Assembly: GCF_001316265.1 (NCBI RefSeq)
Contig: NZ_BBDN01000002.1
Location: forward strand, 1-64,000
From: Vulcanisaeta sp. JCM 16159
Lineage (GTDB): Archaea > Thermoproteota > Thermoprotei > Thermoproteales > Thermocladiaceae
Direction: 5' to 3'
DNA length: 64,000 nt
The notes beneath the pieces were generated by a model. That model did not search any database. It was given only the letters and a program-made list of their open reading frames with translations, and was not told the origin of the DNA. The position numbers and the translations under genes were made by a program. How positions within the stretch are numbered: the stretch's first letter is position 1; each line of letters opens with the position of its first letter. Positions 36,308 to 37,488 of this stretch are shown here, piece after piece.

Positions 36308-36435
36308 GATACGTACCTGGATATTTATTTTACCTCTTATCGTCATTACCCATCCACAATTGCCTCGTTAGTTTGATGTACCTGGTCATAAATATATTGC
36401 TTTTTAATTAGATTAAACAATTGAGGGGCATACGG

Positions 36436-36948
36436 TTATTTTGCCTTTTCCTCGTATAAGGTTCTGAAGATATTTACTGCAAATGCATTGTCTATGCTGA
36501 GGTAACTAATGAGTATGATATAGAACTGAAATAGTAAGCCTGCTGAAAATGCCCTTATTAGGAAGAACTTGGCTGATTCATCATCACAGATCCTACGTGC
36601 CTCCATTGCCTGGAAGGCGGAGATTAGGCATAAATACCGGAGTTGACGTCATACTTAACAAAATTCATTAATGGCCCATCCAAATACCTCACAAATGCAT
36701 CCTCTATTTGACTGGTTTGTTCAGTCTCCTTAACCGCCTTTTGAACCAATATAAGCTTATTCAACGTATCATTTACATCGTTTATAAGCTCCGGGAATAA
36801 CCTGGCCATTGAGTCAATTGCATTTTTTTGTTATCTTATTGTAGTTCTTCTCCGCGCATTCTGTCATTTTAACAGTCAAGCCGTACTTAATTAGTTGCGA
36901 AACTTTTCTCAACTTATTGATTGCTTCTGTATTATTAGCGGATGCCAT
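36436..36948 (-). CDS. hypothetical membrane-tailed protein, two frameshifts
   Basis: Three open pieces join into one protein of about 170 residues: MASANNTEAINKLRKVSQL, then after a run of seven A near 36825 AIDSMARLFPELINDVNDTL, and after a shift near 36635 SAFQAMEARRICDDESAKFF followed by LIRAFSAGLLFQFYIILISY, a hydrophobic helix. It ends EEKAK at 36436. Mostly helical with a C-terminal membrane segment. I do not recognise the family. It stands alone between psmB and the RNA genes. Confidence 0.55.
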
Positions 36949-37293
36949 TAAGAATGTAAGATGTGAAGAGGTTTTTAAGTATTATGTAATTGAAATAGTA
37001 ATAGTAAGTTAAGAAACAATAATGAAAACCACCGAGGTATTATTATATTAACATAGTATGGAATAATAAATTAGTGATACCTAAGAACTGAATGATTAAA
37101 CAATACATGGTTACACTAATGACTTAATCAATATCAATGAAGATGTGCCCCGCCCTGGAGGAGCCCAGCCTCATTGGTGGGTCAACCCCAACTCGGCCGG
37201 CCCACGCCGGCGGGACTACTCATTAGTAATAAGGGATGCTTTAGTACCTTTTTACCATAAAGACTTAAGAACCACTTATACGTATATCTTCGT
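36949..37293. other. intergenic region with RNA genes
   Basis: About 345 bases without a protein gene, AT-rich except for the 73-nt GC-rich element at 37144-37216. The stretch 36960-37140 holds no reading frame or motif that I can support; the C/D box RNA begins at 37294. Confidence 0.6.
37144..37216 (-). ncRNA. candidate 73-nt GC-rich structured RNA ending in ACA
   Basis: A GC-rich island (about 70% GC) in an otherwise AT-rich 345-base gap, which in hyperthermophiles often marks RNA genes. On the minus strand the ends pair perfectly over seven bases, gucccgc with gcggggc, including one G-U pair that would be an A-C mismatch on the plus strand; this picks the minus strand. The closing stem is followed at once by ACA, as in H/ACA guide RNAs. 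Inside are stems guggg/cccac and either gagg/ccuc or cugg/ccag. It lacks a T-loop, so it is not a standard tRNA. Confidence 0.5.
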
Positions 37294-37347
37294 GGGTGAT
37301 GTGCCTCCACGGGACTGAGAACCTGATGAAGTTGGTCTTTACTGATT
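37294..37347 (+). ncRNA. C/D box sRNA (2'-O-methylation guide)
   Basis: All four boxes are present in the right order: C (gtgatgt, 37296-37302), D' (ctga, 37315-37318), C' (tgatga, 37324-37329) and D (ctga, 37342-37345). Both guide spacers are exactly 12 bases, the preferred archaeal length, and the D'-C' gap is five bases. Such RNAs work with L7Ae, Nop5 and fibrillarin. Guides are gcctccacggga (before D') and agttggtcttta (before D). The targets cannot be found without rRNA and tRNA sequences. Confidence 0.78.
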
Positions 37348-37488
37348 TAGTGCTTTTGTGTTTCATGGTTCGCATTACCAATCATGGGTAACGTAATCAG
37401 TTATTGAGCAAGGCTGCATTGGTGACGCCAAGTGTCGTTCACTTGAGGTAGATTTTTATTCATGGGTGTTTTTACCTATAATTGCTGT

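Follow-up and report, generated by a model that had tools for sequence, protein, structure and literature searches.

sR201 is one of two canonical, non-shortened H/ACA guides of Pyrobaculum (PMC4652768) and is represented in Rfam by RF02801 (PyrR201, Pyrobaculum H/ACA sRNA 201). It is a single hairpin with a K-turn, the pocket strands GGCGU and CUCCA, a lower stem of about 6 bp and an ACA box. The same order also contains the shortened Pyrobaculum H/ACA-like RNAs sR203-sR210, which are K-turn hairpin guides without a lower stem (PMC4652768). The Pyrococcus RNAs HgcG/Pab40 (RF00064) and HgcE/Pab105 (RF00060) have the same architecture and differ by carrying other guides and more than one hairpin. 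Among the rRNA positions relevant here, the tip of 16S rRNA helix 31, near the P site, bears m1acp3-pseudouridine 930 in Saccharolobus solfataricus (PMC11698992), with acp3U910 as the corresponding position in Haloferax (PMC2584109), and Nep1, which methylates the pseudouridine at this site, recognises the motif C/UUCAAC (PMC9508554).

The locus described here lies within the first 64,000 nucleotides of contig NZ_BBDN01000002.1 of Vulcanisaeta sp. JCM 16159, the stretch of DNA that was analysed and that we call the window. A sequence-only reading had singled out a structured RNA candidate on its minus strand, with the correct sequence and coordinates and in a genuinely GC-rich island (GC of 0.74, with noncoding flanks at 0.34-0.40). 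Read along the minus strand from 37216 to 37144, the element is GUCCCGC CGGCGU GGGCCGGCC GA GUUGGG GUUGA CCCACC AAU GA GGCUGGGCUC CUCCAGG GCGGGGC ACA, and its parts and surroundings are as follows.

37144 to 37216, minus strand: H/ACA guide sRNA of 73 nt, read as an orthologue of sR201 (PyrR201) from covariance models, RF02801 and covariation
37210 to 37216, minus strand: 5′ strand of the lower (closing) stem, GUCCCGC; pairs with 37147-37153 over 7 bp, 7/7 positions showing compensatory changes across the order
37204 to 37209, minus strand: 5′ guide strand of the pseudouridylation pocket, CGGCGU; GG(C/U)GU in 30/30 homologues, complementary to 16S ACGCCG
37195 to 37203, minus strand: upper (“GA”) stem, 5′ strand GGGCCGGCC; both-side changes in 7/9 pairs
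37193 to 37194, minus strand: K-turn, 5′ GA; present in 29/30 homologues
37176 to 37192, minus strand: apical hairpin (C-helix of the K-turn), GUUGGG-GUUGA-CCCACC; both-side changes in 5/5 counted pairs
37171 to 37175, minus strand: K-turn, 3-nt bulge AAU and GA; UGA in 30/30 homologues
37161 to 37170, minus strand: upper stem, 3′ strand GGCUGGGCUC, one base bulged; pairing and covariation
37154 to 37160, minus strand: 3′ guide strand of the pocket, CUCCAGG; CUCC(A/G) in 30/30 homologues, complementary to 16S UUGGAG
37147 to 37153, minus strand: lower stem, 3′ strand GCGGGGC, partner of 37210-37216
37144 to 37146, minus strand: ACA box, 14 nt 3′ of the pocket-closing pair; from the sequence and homologues
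37240 to 37253, minus strand: AAAAAGG-TACTAAA, a putative archaeal BRE/TATA promoter lying about 24-37 nt before the start of the RNA
about 37293 to 37348, plus strand: C/D box sRNA divergent from the H/ACA gene, with D′ guide GCCUCCACGGGA; boxes and D′ guide conserved in the genus

The element is unusually stable, with a minimum free energy of −44.7 kcal/mol (z = −3.0) that one of 200 dinucleotide shuffles equalled, and its fold ranks first among the 17,130 overlapping 73-nt segments of both strands of the whole window. BLASTN found matches to it in nine other genomes of the genus. A covariance model built from ten genus members (R1) recovered homologues from every one of the 12 genus genomes and, across the order, from 32 of 45; in the order's other family the E-values were 1e-4 to 5e-2. 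A second model (R2), in which the canonical H/ACA structure was imposed, was used to align 30 homologues; the window RNA scores 96-97 bits with the two models. In the R2 alignment, both-side changes occur in 19 of 21 pairs, 89.7% of paired cells can pair (71.9% when shuffled, 39-62% when the partner is slid), and covariation reaches 0.497 against 0.191 in shuffles, none of 500 attaining the observed value; the absolute figures lean upwards because the alignment was fitted to the structure model. A hand alignment restricted to the genus also contains replacements of C-G by G-C, G-C by U-G and G-C by A-U. Compensatory changes, whose absence the sequence-only reading had named as grounds for dropping its proposal, are thus abundant. 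Base composition, and nothing more, speaks for a chance hairpin in GC-rich DNA, and we regard this explanation as vanishingly improbable given the z-score, the top-ranked fold and the order-wide homologues with compensatory changes. Weak model matches were also obtained in other families of the order or class (G026:C7:68733-68805, E 0.004; G051:C87:1501-1569, E 0.008), and these are possible distant sR201 homologues.

The conserved structure displays the full anatomy of an H/ACA guide, which bears out the proposed class of RNA. All seven pairs of the predicted closing stem form (37216-37210 with 37153-37147), one of them U-G, and ACA stands straight after the stem as had been noted. The distance from the pocket-closing pair to ACA is 7 + 7 = 14 nt, within the 14-16 nt expected for an ACA/ANA box, and the box is in place in 28 of 30 homologues, being AAA in one and displaced in another. 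On its 3′ side the K-turn is an R-A-U bulge plus GA across homologues and, with the opposite GA, forms a putative L7Ae site, while the lower stem, internal pocket and upper stem are the elements in which the covariation described above is found. K-turn, pocket and ACA spacing all agree with the canonical H/ACA model of PMC4652768. The upper stem of the window RNA has 9 pairs and 2 G-A, hence 11 layers with one bulge, or 10 if the first pair opens. The bulged 11-layer form is found in most of the genus and lies inside the published range of 8-11, off the optimum of 10; two homologues (L009 and L010) have 8 + 2 = 10 layers. The minus-strand assignment, for which the U-G pair was suggestive, is settled by conservation because the K-turn, the ACA box and the upstream TATA/BRE-like box all read on that strand. 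An RNAalifold fold in which the pocket strands pair GG:CC was replaced by the canonical structure of R2; this pairing is likely the fold of the free RNA. Compared with R1, R2 gives most distant homologues higher scores and a few loci on the Thermoproteaceae side slightly lower ones. Two homologues (L002 and L003, from genomes G002 and G008) have GGG added to the G run ahead of C-ACA, which would shift the ACA by 3 nt. The insertions are likely homopolymer assembly errors because both genomes are large yet only 67% complete.

Rfam 15 returned no match to the window locus at gathering threshold, and this had first suggested novelty. The best Rfam match of the window RNA is RF02801, with 27.7 bits (E 0.0015 over the 93 bases searched) and below the gathering cut-off of 49, and by Rfam's curated threshold the RNA is not a member of that family. 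The scores of its homologues overturn the impression of novelty: the genus-built model retrieves loci in two genomes that both exceed the RF02801 cut-off (G031, 93.7 bits; G033, 61.5 bits), L052, a homologue found in a different genus within the same family, reaches 39.6 bits, and the guides GGCGU and CUCC are shared. Because homologues pass RF02801, the best Rfam match of the window RNA is RF02801 and the guide strands are identical, the element is best read as an sR201 orthologue; it is almost certainly an H/ACA RNA of the sR201 type. The RNA is therefore not new in the sense first claimed. It differs from Pyrobaculum sR201 in having one more upper-stem layer and a bulge, a 7-bp GC lower stem and other stem sequences. 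Nor does the suggested kinship with the shortened Pyrobaculum RNAs hold, the window RNA being a full canonical hairpin with a covarying lower stem of 7 bp. To HgcG/Pab40 and HgcE/Pab105 its Rfam similarity is weak (12.9 and 10.7 bits, respectively), with no evidence of orthology. A structured RNA of another class, such as a tRNA-like RNA or split tRNA half, a riboregulator or a terminator with convergent H/ACA resemblance, might be imagined from a GC-rich hairpin with a 7-bp closing stem, all the more as relatives in the order carry odd tRNA genes. This is very improbable in view of the RF02801 homology and the complete covarying H/ACA anatomy. As for a tRNA or split tRNA half, ARAGORN called no tRNA gene in the element, which lacks a T arm, as the sequence-only reading had remarked.

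The pocket strands are constant in all 30 homologues while the surrounding stems vary. We compared the guide strands of each of ten genomes from five genera with the 16S and 23S rRNAs of the same genome (16S of G033 being partial). A strict first scan with a 2-nt spacer gave inconsistent rRNA matches only, on both strands and in the flanks, and a site with a 3-nt spacer was adopted instead. This recurrent match, 16S UUGGAG-U-CA-ACGCCGG, is present in 10/10 genomes with 6 pairs 5′ of the spacer and 5 to 8 pairs 3′ of it; around U930 in the window genome the count is 6 + 7, and the spacer there is UCA, 3 nt, in place of the expected 5′-UN-3′. No rRNA site of comparable quality with a 2-nt spacer was found in 16S and 23S of the ten genomes. 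The chance of such a match in a single genome is about 0.02 (22 of 1000 shuffled rRNAs, 38 of 2000 shuffled guides) in a test that permitted spacers of 2 and 3, the 3-nt spacer having been adopted post hoc from motif listings. Recurrence and guide invariance add to this figure and are not independent of it, because the 16S site is itself invariant. The predicted target uridine, U930, lies at the helix 31 tip and corresponds to E. coli 966, an equivalence drawn by eye from conserved flanks; at the position of the Nep1 recognition motif, 16S of the window genome reads GUCAAC. Two 16S genes are unusually long (L073 in G031, 2213 nt; L072 in G012, 1679 nt), which indicates insertions, presumably introns, and in both the predicted target site is uninterrupted.

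On complementarity, U930 is a likely target of pseudouridylation. The guide may instead serve another uridine, in a tRNA, an mRNA or elsewhere in rRNA, with an incidental or secondary match to helix 31, a reading that draws on the single-genome chance of about 0.02 and on published rules under which a 3-nt target spacer is an unfavourable anomaly and unproductive (PMC4652768). We consider this reading unlikely: the same 16S site is matched in every genome compared across the five genera, nothing else in this otherwise rapidly changing RNA is as constant as its pocket strands, Saccharolobus is known to carry a modified pseudouridine at this position (PMC11698992), and a genome-wide pattern search for 2-nt-spacer targets outside rRNA gave counts equal to control. 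The spacer may also be a normal U-C with a bulged A in the 3′ duplex, because the guide U can pair with either A. As the 3-nt arrangement is conserved across the order, either it works or the target is something else. A canonical single-hairpin sR201 orthologue with its own promoter and 16S U930 as target is, as a whole, a likely explanation of the locus. That sR201 and its orthologues across the order start the synthesis of the helix 31 m1acp3-pseudouridine through a conserved non-canonical spacer, of 3 nt or bulged, contrary to the productive-fold rule, is a proposal to which we give an even chance.

In the mechanism that we envisage, the sR201 gene would be expressed by itself from a TATA/BRE promoter of its own, giving a transcript of about 73 nt. 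In 29 homologues the sequence preceding the RNA has an A+T content of 0.90-1.00 at −24 to −27 and is purine-rich at −31 to −36, and we infer that this box and these purines sit where an archaeal TATA/BRE is expected if transcription begins at the stem. The K-turn would be the binding site of L7Ae, and Cbf5-Nop10-Gar1 would assemble on the lower stem and ACA. The 5′ guide CGGCGU and the 3′ guide CUCCAG would then clasp 16S 5′-UUGGAG-U-CA-ACGCCGG-3′ and present U930 to Cbf5 for conversion to pseudouridine, which would be the first step towards m1acp3-pseudouridine, ahead of methylation by Nep1. The same modified nucleotide occurs at the equivalent P-site position in eukaryotes. There, the H/ACA snoRNA of the 18S m1acp3-pseudouridine site (yeast snR35) would act at the corresponding rRNA position and is a functional analogue only. 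Nep1/EMG1 (165.6 bits) and Nop10 are both encoded in the window genome. The cbf5 gene of this genome (L107; G000 contig C8 8569-9490, minus strand) is split over three frames with short overlaps, probably by assembly errors, consistent with the 63% completeness of the assembly at 2.25 Mb.

The H/ACA gene is flanked by a proteasome-subunit gene and a ThiI-like gene, identified with Pfam, both of which stand beside the RNA in most genus members. The proteasome-subunit gene directly adjoins the H/ACA gene in most genus members; here the two are separated by about 840 bp of low-GC DNA (36308-37143). The neighbouring C/D box sRNA, already suspected from the sequence, is real by conservation and lies on the plus strand: its boxes C, D′, C′ and D and its D′ guide GCCUCCACGGGA recur in the genus, with best Rfam scores of 19.5-21.8 bits, below gathering. 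The earlier description of the region as a small RNA locus is right for that reason. The D′ guide has an 11-bp match to 23S 855-866 and predicts 2′-O-methylation in 23S CCCCGUGGAGGC (855-866); no clear rRNA target was found for the D guide.

The locus is an additional member of the known sR201 family with a plausible target assignment. Annotation at gathering threshold misses sR201 outside Pyrobaculum and its close relatives, because Rfam 15 gives no gathering-level match at the locus despite order-wide conservation. Aligned across the order, the guide strands point to a single rRNA site, the uridine of P-site helix 31. If this assignment is true, it would name the guide for the first step of helix 31 m1acp3-pseudouridine synthesis in the order, and would provide a natural setting in which to test whether guiding across a 3-nt target spacer is productive.
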